DNA of 18,834 nucleotides, taken from Candidatus Sumerlaeota bacterium (GTDB taxonomy: Bacteria; CG03; SLGR01). A model generated the notes under the pieces. That model was not told the DNA's origin. It saw only the letters and a list, made by a program, of their open reading frames with translations, and ran no database searches. The stretch is from the NCBI GenBank assembly GCA_007136585.1, contig SLGR01000109.1, forward strand, positions 1 to 18,834, written 5' to 3'. Positions 1,358-7,454 of the stretch are shown in pieces (within the stretch, counting starts at the first letter, position 1; each line of letters begins with the position of its first letter). The position numbers were made by a program, and so were the translations under genes.

Positions 1358-2407
1358 ATGCTGCTTCCCGTAACAGAGAAAAGACCCAGGTACATAACCA
1401 TAGGAGCCCATTACAGGTGTAACGCTGACTGCCGGTTCTGTCTCGGGGGGGATTACCCTGATTTTACTCTGAGGTGTTACAGGGAATTCTTTGAGAAAGA
1501 ACTGCTCCCGGTAATGAGAGATGCCGAGCACGTGGGGTTCTGCGGTTACGGCGAGGTTCTGCTTATGCCTGGGATAACCGGGTTTCTTGATTACATAAAC
1601 ACAGAGAGCCTTTCCGGAACCGTTAAGGTGTTTACTACTAACGGGTACCCCCTGGATTCTGAGATAAGAGAGAGACTTGTGGGGGGGCGTTATTCCATTA
1701 TCATATCTCTACATGCCTCGAACAGCAAGCTCCATGAGATGCTTACGGGCCGCAAAATGTACGAACAGATAATAAATAATATTGAAACTCTTGCCGGACT
1801 CAAAAAAAAAAGGGAAAGCTCTCTCCATATAAACCTGGCTTTCCTGCTCACAACTCTTAATATAGGTGATCTTCCCGATTTTGTGGAGCTGAGCGCCCGG
1901 CTGGGCGCCGACAGGGTTACCTGCAGCTACCTTACGGTTTTCAGCAGGAACCAACTTCCAATGTCATGCTTTTTTCACCAGGATGAGACACTGCGAAGTA
2001 TGGAAAAAGCCGCTAAGGCGGCGGAAAGATCCGGGCTGGAGCTGATTCTGCCGCCCCGGTTCGGAAATAAGGAGGATGAACCGCGGATATGCCGGGATCC
2101 CTGGGAGTTCTTTTATGTTGAGGTTCAGAGGTCTGTGCTTCCCTGCTGCTATGCCGGAGACCACATAGGATACCTGGGGGAGAGTAGTTTTGAAGAGATA
2201 TGGAACTCTCCCGGATACATAAGACTCAGAAAAGGACTTTTAAGCGGAGATCCTTACAGGTGGTGCAGTCACTGTATGAATTACAGAAGTTCCAATGTTA
2301 ACGATATAAGGTCGCATATAACTTTCAGACATGGTGTAAGGGAGGAATTGCTTGAGTATATGGAATCAGCAGGGTATGATAATATAAAAAATGAGTTTAA
2401 GCCCTAA
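1358..2407 (+). CDS. Radical SAM/SPASM-like protein (first of two paralogues)
   Basis: A predicted radical SAM enzyme that would cleave S-adenosylmethionine with a [4Fe-4S] cluster. The CxxxCxxC cluster motif is C21, C25, C28 (CNADCRFC), and GYGE at residues 63-66 stands where the GGEP motif usually lies. The C-terminal part carries cysteines C245, C263, C264, C303 and C306, arranged like a SPASM or twitch auxiliary-cluster domain; a segment with EEIWNSP before the last pair is typical of SPASM proteins. Length (349 aa) fits the family. ATG 1358 has a weak AGG six bases upstream. The frame is open back to 1268 without an ATG, GTG or TTG, and that stretch resembles the N-terminus of the paralogue at 3449, so the true start may be a rare codon further upstream. 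The last 17 bases overlap the next gene. The substrate is unknown; SPASM enzymes often modify peptides or proteins. Confidence 0.88.
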   Translation: MLLPVTEKRPRYITIGAHYRCNADCRFCLGGDYPDFTLRCYREFFEKELLPVMRDAEHVGFCGYGEVLLMPGITGFLDYINTESLSGTVKVFTTNGYPLDSEIRERLVGGRYSIIISLHASNSKLHEMLTGRKMYEQIINNIETLAGLKKKRESSLHINLAFLLTTLNIGDLPDFVELSARLGADRVTCSYLTVFSRNQLPMSCFFHQDETLRSMEKAAKAAERSGLELILPPRFGNKEDEPRICRDPWEFFYVEVQRSVLPCCYAGDHIGYLGESSFEEIWNSPGYIRLRKGLLSGDPYRWCSHCMNYRSSNVNDIRSHITFRHGVREELLEYMESAGYDNIKNEFKP

Positions 2408-3449
2408 AGACCTGTACGGTAAAAAACGGGAAAATTACGAAACGGTTGAGAAGGAAAAAAAATCAGGGAGTATCCTGCTCTCCGGTTACCCATACTGGCT
2501 TACAATAGACCCTTCCAGCAGATGCAGCCTGAGATGTCCGCTATGCCCTACAGGGCAGCGTAGGGGAACCAGGCCCGCGGTCAATATGAGTATGGACAGG
2601 TTCAGAAAAGTTATTGATTCCCTGGGCCCCTGGCTCATACATATGGATATGTGTAACTGGGGGGAGCCCCTTATGAACGAAAGTATTTTTGATATGGTAT
2701 CATACGCAAAGAGGTACCTTATCCATATTAAAATAGATACAAATATGACGGTTCTTAGCGATGAGTCGGCCGAGAAACTTGTCAGTTCCGGTCTTGACAG
2801 GGTCATACTCTCGGTGGACGGTGTAACCCAGGAGACATACGGCATATACAGGAAAGGGGGGGATATAAAGAAAGTCTTTGATAATATAAGGCTGCTGGCA
2901 GAAAAACGCGCCGAGGTTTCATCGGATAAACCTTTCCTGGAATGGCAGTTTCTTGTATTCAGGCATAACCAGCACGAGATCGAGCGCGCCCGGGAAATAG
3001 CCCCTGAACTGGGAGTGGACCGGGTAAGTTTTACCCCTCCATACGCGGGGAGCGAAGAATGGCTTTCAACCTTAAAACCATTCAGGGATAAATACTACGA
3101 TACAACGGAGGGCAATATAAGTTTCAGAAGACAGTCAGGGCGGGAAATATGCTCCTGGCTCTGGGACGGCGTAACAGTAAATTCAGACGGTTCCGTATCC
3201 CCCTGCTGTTCGGTGGAGGAGGCCCCGGATGATTTTGCGGAAGAGTTCCCCGATGGGGATTTCCGGGAATTTTTCAATACCAAAAAATATATTGATGCCA
3301 GAAGAAGAATACTTGAGAGAAATCCCCCGGAACCTTCTTCCTCCAATGTCTGTCTGCGGTGTGAGCACTGGGGGTGGAGCAACCACGCCGATCTCGGGCA
3401 TTTACTCAGGGAGATATATGTTCCCGGTAAGGAGGCGTCTGAAGGGTAG
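2391..3449 (+). CDS. Radical SAM/SPASM domain protein
   Basis: A predicted radical SAM enzyme of 352 aa. The SAM-cluster cysteines are C45, C49, C52 (CSLRCPLC), and WGEP at residues 90-93 is the SAM-binding GGEP-type motif. The C-terminal auxiliary-cluster cysteines are C254, C272, C273, C321 and C324, preceded by a VNSDGSVSPCC segment that is a recognisable SPASM signature. The start ATG overlaps the preceding gene by 17 bases and lacks a good Shine-Dalgarno sequence, so translation is probably coupled. The stop TAG overlaps the GTG start of the next gene by one base. It sits between two paralogous radical SAM genes but is not closely similar to them; its motifs are closer to the classical SPASM family. 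Substrate unknown. Related SPASM proteins act as peptide maturases or in cell-envelope and cofactor pathways, which is family knowledge and not shown here. Confidence 0.9.
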   Translation: MSLSPKDLYGKKRENYETVEKEKKSGSILLSGYPYWLTIDPSSRCSLRCPLCPTGQRRGTRPAVNMSMDRFRKVIDSLGPWLIHMDMCNWGEPLMNESIFDMVSYAKRYLIHIKIDTNMTVLSDESAEKLVSSGLDRVILSVDGVTQETYGIYRKGGDIKKVFDNIRLLAEKRAEVSSDKPFLEWQFLVFRHNQHEIERAREIAPELGVDRVSFTPPYAGSEEWLSTLKPFRDKYYDTTEGNISFRRQSGREICSWLWDGVTVNSDGSVSPCCSVEEAPDDFAEEFPDGDFREFFNTKKYIDARRRILERNPPEPSSSNVCLRCEHWGWSNHADLGHLLREIYVPGKEASEG

Positions 3450-4528
3450 TGAAAGGTAAGCATATTTTAAACAGCGTGCTCAACAGGGCCGAATACGAAA
3501 AAAGAAAGATACATCTGGACTCTTTCCCGGAATCTGTTTTCATACAGATGGACGCGCCCTGCAACCACGACTGCGTATTCTGCTCCAGGCCGGAGAACTA
3601 CCCTTTTTTTGATATTGACTCCTTCAGAAGGGATTTCGGGGAAACGCTTGAACCCGTGTTTGAAAATGTTTCCAGGATAAACCTGACAGGTTCCGGTGAG
3701 CTCCTTTTTCTTCCGGAAGCCAGGCGCAGCCTTGAGTATTTCAACGGGTTCTCCCATGCCGGGAAGATGTTTGCCACTAACGGGAGTTCTCTTACTCCGA
3801 AAATGGCGGATTTTCTTCTGGAAAGCGGCAGCAGGTACGTGATACATATTTCTCTTCACGCCCCTTCGGATGAACTTCACCGTAAGATGACAGGCGCAAA
3901 AACATTCCAGGTAATACTTGAGAACCTGAAGCACCTTAAAAAAGCGCGTTCCGGAAGCGGGAACCTTACCCTGAATTTCATATTTGTGGCGACCGCGCTT
4001 AATATATCGGCCCTTCCGGATTTTGTCAGTTTCTCCTCCGGGATGGGCGCCGACGGTGTAATGGTTTACTATAACTACATATACCGTAACGACCAGCTGG
4101 AGTGCTCGTGTTTCCATAAACAGGAACTTGCAAACCGTATGCTTGAGGAGGCGGAAACCCGGGCCGCCTCCTGCGGGATAGATATATCCCTGCCCCCGTT
4201 TTTTGGAAGAAAATATCCCCGGGACCCGAACCCCTGCAGGGAACCCTGGAGCCAGATAATGATAAACTCCGCGGGGGATGTGATATCCTGCGATGTCGCC
4301 GGGGACTCCCGTGAGAACCTCAAAAGCGGAAAGAGTTTTATGGATATCTGGAACGGAAAGTACTACACCAGGTTAAGGAAAAATCTTGCGGTGGGAAGTT
4401 TCGATTGCGCGCAGAGATGCTGGCGGGCAAACCCGGAAACAGTAAACGAGTTTATCTCTCATATAATTACCCGCGGAAGATCCGAGGAGGAAATTGAGAA
4501 ACTTGCCAGGGAGTATAAACGGGTATGA
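3449..4528 (+). CDS. Radical SAM/SPASM-like protein (second paralogue)
   Basis: A predicted radical SAM enzyme of 359 aa with cluster cysteines C38, C42, C45 (CNHDCVFC), and GSGE at residues 81-84 in place of GGEP. The C-terminal cysteines C263, C281, C320 and C324 suggest an auxiliary cluster with fewer ligands than in the two upstream proteins. It is clearly paralogous to the product of 1358-2407. Shared segments include TNG followed by an ISLHA strand, LPDF, the LPP-FG segment, C-R-PW, IWN and YxRLRK. The GTG start lies in TAGTG, overlapping the upstream stop by one base, with GAAGGG just upstream and AAGGAGG at 3429-3435. The stop TGA overlaps the ATG that begins repeat element A. Two paralogues separated by a third enzyme suggest sequential or partner reactions on related substrates, which is inference. 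Confidence 0.88.
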   Translation: MKGKHILNSVLNRAEYEKRKIHLDSFPESVFIQMDAPCNHDCVFCSRPENYPFFDIDSFRRDFGETLEPVFENVSRINLTGSGELLFLPEARRSLEYFNGFSHAGKMFATNGSSLTPKMADFLLESGSRYVIHISLHAPSDELHRKMTGAKTFQVILENLKHLKKARSGSGNLTLNFIFVATALNISALPDFVSFSSGMGADGVMVYYNYIYRNDQLECSCFHKQELANRMLEEAETRAASCGIDISLPPFFGRKYPRDPNPCREPWSQIMINSAGDVISCDVAGDSRENLKSGKSFMDIWNGKYYTRLRKNLAVGSFDCAQRCWRANPETVNEFISHIITRGRSEEEIEKLAREYKRV

Positions 4529-4674
4529 AATTGCTGTCTCAGCCGCTGCCGTCATCCGTTTTCTCATTCTCGCAACCTGCGGTTGCTCCGAGGGGTTCTT
4601 CCCTGCCCTCAGAACAAACCCGAAAACAGATACCGTCAGCGTCTGAGGGTGTACTAAAGGGTATTTTTAGATGA
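4525..4674 (+). repeat. Intergenic repeat element, copy A
   Basis: A 150-base element, 92% identical (138 of 150 positions by my count) to copy C at 6457-6606 and related to copy B at 6281-6425. It holds a perfect hairpin, GCAACC-TGC-GGTTGC, at 4572-4586. A longer-range inverted repeat pairs CCCTCAGA (4606-4613) with TCTGAGGG (4642-4649). Within the latter, CAGA and TCTG flank a conserved TACCG. The 3' end carries AAAGGG at 4656-4661, nine bases before the ATG of the next gene, so the element supplies that gene's ribosome-binding site. The element starts exactly at the ATG overlapping the upstream stop and ends exactly at the downstream start. Confidence 0.9.
4525..4674 (+). CDS. Possible 49-aa small ORF within repeat copy A
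   Basis: Reading copy A from its first ATG gives 49 codons, beginning MKLLSQPLPSSVFSF and ending GVLKGIFR. The ATG overlaps the stop of the upstream radical SAM gene (ATGA, 4525-4528) and the TGA overlaps the start of the downstream gene (ATGA, 4671-4674), an arrangement typical of translationally coupled cistrons. The peptide is rich in Pro, Ser, Gln and Arg, with neither signal peptide nor cysteine. Against a coding role, the 12 differences from copy C fall 5, 3 and 4 on codon positions 1, 2 and 3, so purifying selection on a peptide is not visible, and the DNA is full of hairpins. It could be a leader or precursor peptide for the radical SAM enzymes, or simply an open frame in a repeat. 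Confidence 0.3.
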   Translation: MKLLSQPLPSSVFSFSQPAVAPRGSSLPSEQTRKQIPSASEGVLKGIFR

Positions 4675-6281
4675 AAACTGCTCTTATACAGGCGCCGGTA
4701 TGGGGGACCAGGGAGCCCCCTCTAGGGCTGGTTCAGCTTTCAGGGTGCCTGAAAAGCCGCGGTCTGCCTGTAAAGTCATTTGACCTTAATAATTTTCTTT
4801 ACCGGAACAGGTTCTCAGGGGTGGAGACTTCCTGGGCCTGGGAGCAGAGCGGATTATGGTATGAGAGCAGGTGGGTTGACTCATTTTTCCGGGAGTTTTC
4901 CGGGGTTATAAGTGATTTTACGGAAAGGATACTTGAGTACGGACCCGGTATAGCCGGGTTCTCAGTTTCGTCTTCAACATACCAGGCCAGTATCCGACTG
5001 GCGAAAATACTCAGAGAAAGATCCGATAAGGTTACTCTGATCCTGGGCGGGCCGGCCTTCATTGATAAACAGTTTATTGAGAGAGCTTTCAGGGAATCCC
5101 CCGCTGATTTTCTGATACAGGGAGAGGCGGATAATCTGTTTCCCCGCCTGGTGAAAAGTATCTGCCAGGGGAAGGACCCCGGTTCTGTGCGTGGTCTGTA
5201 CTTCAGAAAGGGAGACGGAACCGGGTATACGGGGCCGGAGCCGCCGGTTGAGAACCTGGATAAACTTCCGTACCTGGATTTTTCGGATCTCAGGATTGAT
5301 GGTTATGATGATAAGGTTCATATATCAATGATGAGCTCCAGGGGGTGCGTCTGGAAGTGTGTTTTCTGCAGTACAAGAGCGTTTTCTTCCGGATACAGGA
5401 GTATGAGCGCGGAGAGGATGCACCAGGAGATTACCTGGCACAGGATAAACCACTACGACCGGGAAAGAAAAGATAATATGGAACACGTGGATTTTGCCGA
5501 TCTGGAGATAAACGGCGACCCCGGGAGGCTGGAGGAGTTCTGCGAACTTATGATAAAGTATCCCCCGTGTTCTTTTCTTCCGGAAATGAAATGGGTTGCA
5601 AACGCCATAGTGCACCCCTCTCTAACCCGCGGGCTTCTTAGAAAAATGGCTTTCGCAGGATGCAAGAAACTCATATTCGGGCTGGAGTCCGGCTCCGACA
5701 GGGTCCTGCGCCTTATGAGAAAGCAATACGATCCCGCTCTGGCTATGAAAGTTATCAGGGATGCCTGGGAGGCCGGGATAGAGGTTACCGCGAATTTTAT
5801 GTTTGGCTTTCCGGGTGAGACCCGTGAGGATTTTCAAAAAACCCTTGATTTCATAAAGGAAACGGGAAAGTATCTGGAGAGAGTCTATCCTTCCCGGACT
5901 TGCTGCGCGGTGGAAGAGCACAGTGTTCTTCATAAGGACCCGGAGAGGTTCGGTATAAGAACACCCGTTGAGCACCACCTTTACTGGGAAACCATAGACG
6001 GAGAGAATACTTATCCACTAAGGGTTGAGAAATGCGCGGAGTTTGAAAGGTTCTGCCTTGGTATAGGGGTGAGAGTTGACAGGGGAGTCGGGACAACCGT
6101 TGAGATGGACAGGCTCTACAGCCTTGGATTTTACTACGATTATATGGGAAATTCCGGGGAGGCTGCCCGGTATTTTCAGGAGTATCTTAAGGCGGATCCG
6201 GATAACAGCACGGTAAGAAAACGACTCAGGGAATTAAAAGGTGATACTTTGCCGGATGCTGAAGAAGAGAACCGTAAGTAA
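4671..6281 (+). CDS. B12-binding-type radical SAM protein with TPR-like tail
   Basis: A 536-aa protein. Residues 1 to about 170 resemble a cobalamin-binding Rossmann domain as found before many radical SAM domains: an opening ALIQAP strand, PPLGLVQLSGCLKSRG, GFSVSSSTYQ, LILGGPAF and a QGEAD segment. The classical cobalamin-ligand motif DxHxxG is not evident, which is common in this group, so cobalamin use is likely but unproven. The radical SAM core has C226, C230, C233 (CVWKCVFC) after an SSRG stretch. Later it shows GLESGSDRVL and FMFGFPGET, typical of the Elp3/MiaB-like radical SAM fold. The last 60 residues (YSLGFYYDYMGN then YFQEYLKADPDN) look like a tetratricopeptide repeat. Members of this class methylate unreactive carbon or phosphorus or rearrange rings; the substrate here is unknown. 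Both ends abut repeat elements. Confidence 0.9.
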   Translation: MKTALIQAPVWGTREPPLGLVQLSGCLKSRGLPVKSFDLNNFLYRNRFSGVETSWAWEQSGLWYESRWVDSFFREFSGVISDFTERILEYGPGIAGFSVSSSTYQASIRLAKILRERSDKVTLILGGPAFIDKQFIERAFRESPADFLIQGEADNLFPRLVKSICQGKDPGSVRGLYFRKGDGTGYTGPEPPVENLDKLPYLDFSDLRIDGYDDKVHISMMSSRGCVWKCVFCSTRAFSSGYRSMSAERMHQEITWHRINHYDRERKDNMEHVDFADLEINGDPGRLEEFCELMIKYPPCSFLPEMKWVANAIVHPSLTRGLLRKMAFAGCKKLIFGLESGSDRVLRLMRKQYDPALAMKVIRDAWEAGIEVTANFMFGFPGETREDFQKTLDFIKETGKYLERVYPSRTCCAVEEHSVLHKDPERFGIRTPVEHHLYWETIDGENTYPLRVEKCAEFERFCLGIGVRVDRGVGTTVEMDRLYSLGFYYDYMGNSGEAARYFQEYLKADPDNSTVRKRLRELKGDTLPDAEEENRK

Positions 6282-6367
6282 TGATAATTCTGCTGCAGCC
6301 TCTGCCGGCACGGTTTTCCTTATTCTCGCCTCCGGCTCCGAGGGGTTCCGTCCGAAGGACGGAGTAA
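6281..6367 (+). CDS. Possible 28-aa small ORF within repeat copy B
   Basis: From the ATG that overlaps the TAA of the B12-type gene (TAATG, 6279-6283), copy B reads as 28 codons beginning MIILLQPLPARFSLFS and ending RRTE. It resembles the first half of the copy A and C peptides (shared QPLPAR, FS, APRGS). It stops where those have a CAA codon, so relative to them it is truncated by a nonsense change, and beyond that the frame does not lead to the conserved GIFR end because copy B has a one-base insertion near its 3' end. If the peptides are real, this is a decayed copy; if not, it is another open frame in the repeat. Confidence 0.2.
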   Translation: MIILLQPLPARFSLFSPPAPRGSVRRTE

Positions 6368-6425
6368 ACCCGGAGACCCGTACCGCCGGTCTCTTTAAAT
6401 GTATTTGAAGGATATTTTTAGGTAA
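6281..6425 (+). repeat. Intergenic repeat element, copy B (diverged)
   Basis: A diverged 145-base relative of copies A and C, collinear with them over most of its length. Conserved blocks include CTGCCGGCACGG, ATTCTCG, CTCCGAGGGGTTC, AAACCCG, TACCG and GGATATTTTTAG. Where A and C form the GCAACC/GGTTGC hairpin, copy B is six bases shorter and keeps GCC-TCC-GGC (6328-6336). It adds a perfect seven-pair hairpin, TCCGTCC-GAA-GGACGGA, at 6347-6363. A six-pair GAGACC/GGTCTC hairpin (6373-6378 with 6388-6393) surrounds the same TACCG block. Primary sequence changes while foldable arms remain in comparable places, which favours a structural role. GAAGGA at 6407-6412 matches the Shine-Dalgarno position of the other copies, but no gene begins directly after ATTTTTAG here. 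Confidence 0.8.
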
Positions 6426-6432
6426 AACGACC

Positions 6433-6606
6433 ATGAGTGTATACTCACAAAAAGAAATGGAATTACTGTCTCAGCCGCTGCCGGCACGGGTTTTCTCATT
6501 CTCGCAACCTGCGGTTGCTCCGAGGGGTTCTTCCCTTCCCTCAGAACAAACCCGAAAACAGATACCGTCAGCGCCTGAGGGTGTATGCAGGGGTATTTTT
6601 AGATGA
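6433..6606 (+). CDS. Possible 57-aa small ORF spanning repeat copy C
   Basis: An ATG at 6433, or an in-frame ATG at 6457 that matches the copy A start, opens a frame to the TGA at 6604-6606. It encodes 57 or 49 codons. The 49-codon form begins MELLSQPLPARVFSF and ends GVCRGIFR. The stop overlaps the start of the next radical SAM gene by four bases (ATGA). Protein differences from copy A are K/E, SS/AR, S/P and LK/CR, with two synonymous changes, so there is no sign of protein-level constraint. No good Shine-Dalgarno precedes 6457; GAAGGA of copy B lies 20 bases before 6433. The candidate functions are those considered for the copy A ORF: a coupling leader or a peptide substrate. Confidence 0.3.
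   Translation: MSVYSQKEMELLSQPLPARVFSFSQPAVAPRGSSLPSEQTRKQIPSAPEGVCRGIFR
6457..6606 (+). repeat. Intergenic repeat element, copy C
   Basis: A near twin of copy A, also 150 bases with no gaps in the alignment. It keeps the GCAACC-TGC-GGTTGC hairpin (6504-6518). The long-range pairing of CCCTCAG (6538-6544) with CTGAGGG (6575-6581) also survives, one pair shorter than in copy A. AGGGG at 6589-6593 sits nine bases before the ATG of the downstream radical SAM gene, as in copy A. The 31 bases between copies B and C (6426-6456) contain a short hairpin, TGAGT-GTAT-ACTCA, at 6434-6447 and no gene. Confidence 0.9.
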
Positions 6607-7454
6607 AAGAGTTTTATCTTCAGGGAAAGGATCTTACGGGTGAAACCGGTTCAAAGAGGGGGGAGATCAGGTTTCATTGGAATATAACTTACTCCTGTAA
6701 TTACAGGTGCAGGTACTGTTTTTTTGACGGAAAGTGGGAGGAGTACGGTAAGCGGACCGTTTTTCTGGAACCATCCGGCTGGGAGAAGAACTGGAGACGC
6801 ATCTTTGAAGTTTACGGGAGTTGCTTCCTGGTGATTACGGGAGGCGAACCTTTTACATACCCCGGGTTTATTCAGATAATAAGAAAAGTCTCCGCATTTC
6901 ACCGTATAAATATATCAACCAATGGCTCGGGAAACATGGAAAATTTTGCCGGGAGCGTCTCCCCGGAAAGGGTATCGCTTACTTTTTCTTTTCATCCCGG
7001 GTTCAATACCCTTAAAAAGATTATATCCGGAATTGAATTTGTGAGAGAAAAAGGTTTCAAGACGGATTATATAAATCTTTGCGCTTACCCCCCCTTTATC
7101 CCTAAAGTAGAGGGGTACCTTGAAGAGGCCGCAGGAAGCGGCCTTAAACTGAAACTTATACCTTTCTGCGGGGAGTTTGAAGGAAAGAGATACCCTGAAT
7201 CTTACAGCGATTATGAAAAAGAGGTCTTGGGGATGGACGGGGTATGGGAGGATAACGTAACCAGAAAGGGAAGTCTCTGCTGTGCGGGGTACAGGACGGC
7301 CCTGATTTTTCCTGACGGTAAAACGGCCAGGTGCGGGCAGATAGGGGAGAAGCATATTATAGGAGATTTTTTCTCGGATAAGTTTAGGCTTCTTGAGGAG
7401 CCTCTTCCCTGTGAAGCTGATATCTGTCCCTGTCTCGAGGCCCCGGAGGCTTAA
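6603..7454 (+). CDS. Radical SAM protein with C-terminal cysteine cluster
   Basis: A 283-aa predicted radical SAM enzyme with C32, C36, C39 (CNYRCRYC) and a canonical TGGEP at residues 79-83. The SAM-fold core is followed by C226, C227 and C244 in a segment with FPDGKTARCGQ, and by C270, C275 and C277 near the end. This resembles a twitch or SPASM-type auxiliary cluster site. It is shorter than the other radical SAM proteins in the row, and its end (CPCLEAPEA) looks abrupt; a second DICPC coding stretch lies exactly 100 bases downstream. The ATG is supplied by the end of repeat copy C, with AGGGG nine bases upstream. It is the last gene of the radical SAM row. Function unknown; cofactor or peptide modification is possible by family analogy. 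Confidence 0.88.
   Translation: MKEFYLQGKDLTGETGSKRGEIRFHWNITYSCNYRCRYCFFDGKWEEYGKRTVFLEPSGWEKNWRRIFEVYGSCFLVITGGEPFTYPGFIQIIRKVSAFHRINISTNGSGNMENFAGSVSPERVSLTFSFHPGFNTLKKIISGIEFVREKGFKTDYINLCAYPPFIPKVEGYLEEAAGSGLKLKLIPFCGEFEGKRYPESYSDYEKEVLGMDGVWEDNVTRKGSLCCAGYRTALIFPDGKTARCGQIGEKHIIGDFFSDKFRLLEEPLPCEADICPCLEAPEA

Follow-up and report, generated by a model that had tools for sequence, protein, structure and literature searches.

A palindromic mobile element, inserted at the start codons through which genes of an operon are translationally coupled and relaying ribosomes across itself so that the operon is nearly blind to its presence, most probably accounts for three repeats in the window, the 18,834-nucleotide stretch of Candidatus Sumerlaeota bacterium DNA analyzed here; we place the probability of this reading at roughly 0.85. 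The reading rests on what the data show: the number of copies, where they sit and which way they point, unoccupied sites in relatives, a frame that selection holds open while scarcely acting on the peptide, and a cloverleaf supported by covariation.

The repeats lie within a row of five radical SAM genes (1358-7454), one of which has a B12-binding domain. The relevant features of the window are as follows.

3449-4528 (+), upstream host gene, radical SAM/SPASM protein
4525-4674 (+), copy A, with a 49-aa open frame and lacking the 35-base left end
4540-4563 (+), copy A outer stem, 5' arm (alignment columns 11-34)
4569-4592 (+), copy A hairpin 1 (CTC-GCAACC-TGC-GGTTGC-TCC-GAG), helices 2 and 3 of the covariation test
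4595-4615 (+), copy A hairpin 2 (GTTCT...AGAAC), helix 4 of the covariation test
4622-4645 (+), copy A outer stem, 3' arm, helix 1 of the covariation test
4656-4661 (+), AAAGGG, Shine-Dalgarno (SD)-like run carried in by copy A, 5' of the ATG at 4671
4671-6281 (+), gene for a B12-binding radical SAM protein, lying between the insertions; its G002 orthologue is 61% identical
6281-6425 (+), copy B, decayed, beginning at a TAATG overlap
6422-6606 (+), full-length copy C, in tandem with the preceding copy B, left end GTAAAACGACCATGAG, right end ATGA at the start of the next gene
6433-6606 (+), copy C relay frame, 57 aa (MSVYSQKEMELLSQPLPARVFSFSQPAVAPRGSSLPSEQTRKQIPSAPEGVCRGIFR), its TGA overlapping the ATG of the next gene at 6603
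6472-6577 (+), cloverleaf of copy C, with hairpins at 6501-6524 and 6527-6547 enclosed by the outer arms 6472-6495 and 6554-6577
6603-7454 (+), downstream host gene, radical SAM protein

The first-pass annotation had reported three copies at these junctions, and this was borne out: copies A (4525-4674) and C (6457-6606) are 92% identical over ∼150 bases, and copy B is a diverged third. The true start of copy C lies ∼35 bases earlier, at 6422 (GTAAAACGACCATGAG...), where the left end is degenerate. Copy A can be translated without a stop from the ATG at 4525 to the TGA at 4672-4674; ATGA overlaps join it to both neighbors, its ATG to the TGA of the upstream gene at 4525-4528 and its TGA to the ATG of the next gene at 4671-4674. 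In copy B, an in-frame TAA (6365-6367) follows 28 codons, the frame shifts further on, and the terminal DTGA (where D is A, G, or T) is mutated to GTAA. The intact frames of copies A and C, each with a TGA overlapping the next ATG, had been overlooked, as had the many copies elsewhere in the genome.

Sequence searches of the genome contigs, from which all copy counts derive, revealed at least 30 copies of the element in the 1.88-Mb genome. With copy A as the query, 31 places in its own genome were found, and further queries added copies. Many copies lie at contig ends and several are cut by them, as expected of repeats, which break assemblies. The full-length element is ∼185 bp; shorter, left-truncated forms such as copy A also occur, and tandem doublets are common. 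The genome and its relatives had been named earlier as the place to look, and the outcome was copies elsewhere in the genome of origin and none, by DNA or protein, in 15 other genomes of the phylum. Nor was the element found in GTDB contigs, viral contigs, phages, or plasmids, sets that may omit close records of the source genome. Rfam covariance models gave no match in the window at the gathering score.

In most copies an open frame of ∼50-57 codons ends in a TGA that overlaps the ATG, GTG, or TTG of the next gene (DTGA). Among 31 right ends, 24 lay exactly at the DTG of an open frame of at least 60 codons (or of one cut by a contig end), four ran into a second copy, and three were off. By comparison, DTGA tetramers number 439 in the window when both strands are counted, and eight of these are the starts of listed genes. 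Where flanks can be read, copies sit at gene junctions, and those with a clear downstream gene point in the same direction as that gene. The downstream genes, named from our reading of their translations, are unrelated: uvrA, uvrC, trpG/pabA, aroK, aroA, pdxA, tsaD, purQ, genes for a 5-formyl-THF cyclo-ligase and a dihydroorotase-like protein, mltG, and radical SAM genes. That the element belongs to the radical SAM operon is ruled out by the copies beside unrelated genes. Eight copies (copy B, L013, L015, L016, L023, L025, L029, and L041+1683) are defective in that the frame shifts, a stop comes early, or an end is imprecise. One further copy (L027, 111-267) carries >50 extra bases in the hairpin region with the frame kept.

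Full left ends read DTGAAACGTCCATGAG, the DTG of which opens a micro-ORF of four MKRP-like codons; its TGA stop shares bases with the ATG that starts the main frame (ATGA), an arrangement intact in 15 copies. In left-truncated copies (A, B, L019, and L022), the start is an internal ATGAAA and the overlap with the upstream stop is retained; deletion between the two ATGAAA repeats would explain this form. The element ends in DTGAAACG on the left and TTTTCAG-DTGA on the right. Compared with MITEs, which are marked by terminal inverted repeats and a target-site duplication, it has its inverted arms internally. The letters of the left and right DTGA agree often, not always, which is no more than suggestive of a target-site duplication of DTGA(A). 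At the aroC-aroK junction, the end of aroC is followed by eight bases and then by ATGAA, the element, and ATGAA-TATAG, as if ATGAA had been duplicated.

Empty counterparts of these sites were read in relatives. In G002, a member of the same family, the radical SAM pair orthologous to that flanking copy A meets directly as AAAGAATGAAAAGAG, an empty ATGA junction. The trpB-trpA junction is an empty ATGA in both G001 and G002, and the aroC-aroK junction is an empty TTGA in G003. Radical SAM clusters orthologous to that of the window exist in G002 and G003 and lack the element at those junctions that were read.

Selection on the frame was assessed by setting each copy against a leave-one-out consensus, with neutral substitution giving the expectation. 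When the last two codons were ignored, 26 of 27 copies were open against 16.3 expected (P = 1.3e-5); with every codon counted, 24 of 27 were open against ∼16 expected (P = 4e-4). Given that copies share ancestry and recombine, so that partly dependent data are treated as independent, these P values are indicative. The encoded peptide is proline-rich and has a dN/dS of 0.86 (95% 0.76-0.97). The absence of third-position bias noted earlier for the window copies holds genome-wide, nearest-copy differences being distributed over the three codon positions as 119:94:119. Taken together, the excess of open frames, the dN/dS value, and this distribution therefore indicate that the open frame is kept by selection and that the peptide is hardly constrained. 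Selection on frame openness also rules out a purely non-coding RNA.

The foldable arms described in the first-pass annotation are real and form part of a larger structure, in which an outer stem of 21 pairs encloses two hairpins; across 29 copies this structure covaries strongly. Unaided, RNAalifold recovered hairpin 1 and the inner portion of the outer stem. In the full cloverleaf 86.7% of cells pair and two-sided changes occur at 20 of 39 pairs, a structure derived from the same sequences favoring the percentage paired, and the two-sided changes much less. None of 500 shuffles reached this number of changed pairs, and slid controls gave 3-11 pairs; 80 two-sided cells were seen against 30 expected. 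Pairing is better between the arms of one copy than between arms taken from different copies (p = 5e-5, or 0.003 without the two most divergent copies). Folding z-scores of single copies were weak (-2.05, -1.02, and -0.70). Two very divergent copies (L041, 1655-1761, and L023, 1029-1143) have outer-stem arms that are unlike all others yet pair with each other. Covariation and coding had been set against each other as alternatives; this was a false choice, since both constraints are present.

These observations can be accommodated in the following scheme. The element would insert at the DTGA(A) start codon of a gene, typically where the upstream stop overlaps or just precedes the start. The order after insertion would be the left DTG, the micro-ORF, the ATG of the ∼55-codon frame, and its TGA on the preserved downstream start. 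Ribosomes that have finished the upstream gene, or that start at the original SD sequence, would be relayed via the element to the downstream gene, and this relay would leave the element nearly invisible to the operon. Insertion is probably an enzymatic transposition at DTGA; the cloverleaf may be the recognition signal of the mobilizing enzyme, and re-initiation at the overlaps of the element probably does occur. A parent element, with the same ends placed around a transposase, was not present among the left-end and junction matches.

A plain dispersed palindrome of the REP or ERIC kind, in which the open frame and the start-codon position are by-products of an insertion preference alone, would account for the covarying palindromic cloverleaf and sits well with a gene for a REP-associated tyrosine transposase in the same genome. 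We nevertheless regard this account as unlikely, because open frames exceed the neutral expectation, the DTGA register is exact, the orientation follows that of the downstream gene, and left truncations retain a start that overlaps the upstream stop. A translated, attenuator-like leader RNA, placing many genes under joint control through hairpins that are rearranged or stalled by the progress of the ribosome through a proline-rich frame, is slightly less probable still. The proline-rich peptide and the overlap of covarying structure with a translated frame adjoining a start codon are what such a leader would lead one to expect; however, the genes served (uvrA, uvrC, tsaD, aroK, aroA, pdxA, purQ, and radical SAM genes) are functionally unrelated, the peptide evolves near neutrality, tandem doublets are common, and the element was not found in any relative searched.

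The first-pass annotation had itself proposed either a dispersed structured repeat or an RNA element that would control differential expression within the operon. The dispersed structured repeat is upheld by the many copies outside the radical SAM operon and by the significant covariation. The dedicated operon regulator has found no support, as the genes that follow the copies are housekeeping genes of unrelated function and most copies can be translated, in a frame held open by selection. Its further suggestion, that the element may insert or control ribosome binding of the next gene, came close: the purine run described before the ATTTTTAG end was found in most copies, so that the element brings a purine-rich, SD-like run together with a frame ending on the next start codon. 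Copies A and C, as small genes coupled through ATGA within a radical SAM operon, are also what a functional small-protein family, for example peptide substrates of radical SAM enzymes, would predict. This we consider very improbable, given that most copies adjoin genes other than those for radical SAM proteins, dN/dS is near 1, and family searches gave no match; for a radical SAM peptide precursor in particular, dispersal beside unrelated genes and the dN/dS value rule it out.

The mobile relay element favored here has its closest known counterpart in the mycobacterial interspersed repetitive units (MIRUs; Supply et al. 1997), described in PMC12548453 and PMC4473831. MIRUs appear to be mobile and insert at start codons, with an ORF coupled at -4 spacing and little effect on the host gene (2025 review, PMC12548453); they are without dyad symmetries (PMC4473831), and the units at senX3-regX3 measure 77 and 53 bp (PMC4213456). 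The element resembles them in being dispersed at intergenic and operon junctions, apparently mobile, and found in tandem, in having a small ORF that overlaps the contiguous ORFs in the same direction, and in start-codon insertion with -4 spacing (DTGA). Set against MIRUs by their descriptions, the element differs in its size (∼150-185 bp), its second, upstream micro-ORF, and its occurrence in another phylum, and it forms a covarying cloverleaf where MIRUs have no dyad symmetry. Because of this last difference, the element would, by analogy, be MIRU-like in its working yet palindromic, and hence a new variant. We lean, by a modest margin over even odds, toward a mobile-element class independent of MIRUs, marked by DTGAA start-site targeting, a cloverleaf mobility signal, and a two-step relay (micro-ORF and ∼55-codon frame) held open by selection, as a convergent form of “operon-transparent” selfish DNA in an uncultured phylum. 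A literature search yielded no report of such elements outside mycobacteria.

Rickettsia palindromic elements (RPEs) are mobile palindromes of ∼150 bp whose open frame is translated, which is why they are tolerated; nearly half sit within protein genes, to which they are fused in frame, and their peptide is conserved (PMC10969869). The palindromic nature, the length of ∼150 bp, and the open frame are shared with the element studied here, which, by contrast, lies between genes rather than being fused in frame within them, ends on start codons, and has a peptide hardly conserved by selection. REPs are likewise dispersed palindromes, and their associated tyrosine transposase has a gene in this genome, too. 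REPs are not known to carry coupled ORFs at start codons. The transposase gene (L185, G000:C230:16539-16874) scores above the NCBIfam cut-off, has a DnaA-like C-terminal part, and is flanked by GGGACGGATGTGAAA / TTTCACATCCGTCCC; no link between it and the element was found in this genome.

If the proposed relay operates, selfish DNA can occupy the most compact places of a genome, the start/stop overlaps of essential operons, by means of its own relay frame, and the open- and broken-frame copies constitute a natural experiment on how far operons rely on translational coupling. In gene calls, the frames of the element will tend to be listed as orphan small proteins.

Other short sequences were observed next to copies of the element. 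A second repeat, ending in TTTCTTTYAGRTGA and represented by two copies only (L032 ∼624-667, that is G000:C246:633-667, and G000:C238:4-38), lies directly 5' of full element copies; where it follows panD, it can be read as a mini-ORF, MNHSRAYSSPISFR, the TGA of which overlaps the left DTGA of the element. At L013 (∼1840-1905), two TGTTTCACGTGAAACA sites, which we take to resemble parS, lie directly to the left of a truncated copy with the left end GTGAAACATCTATGA.
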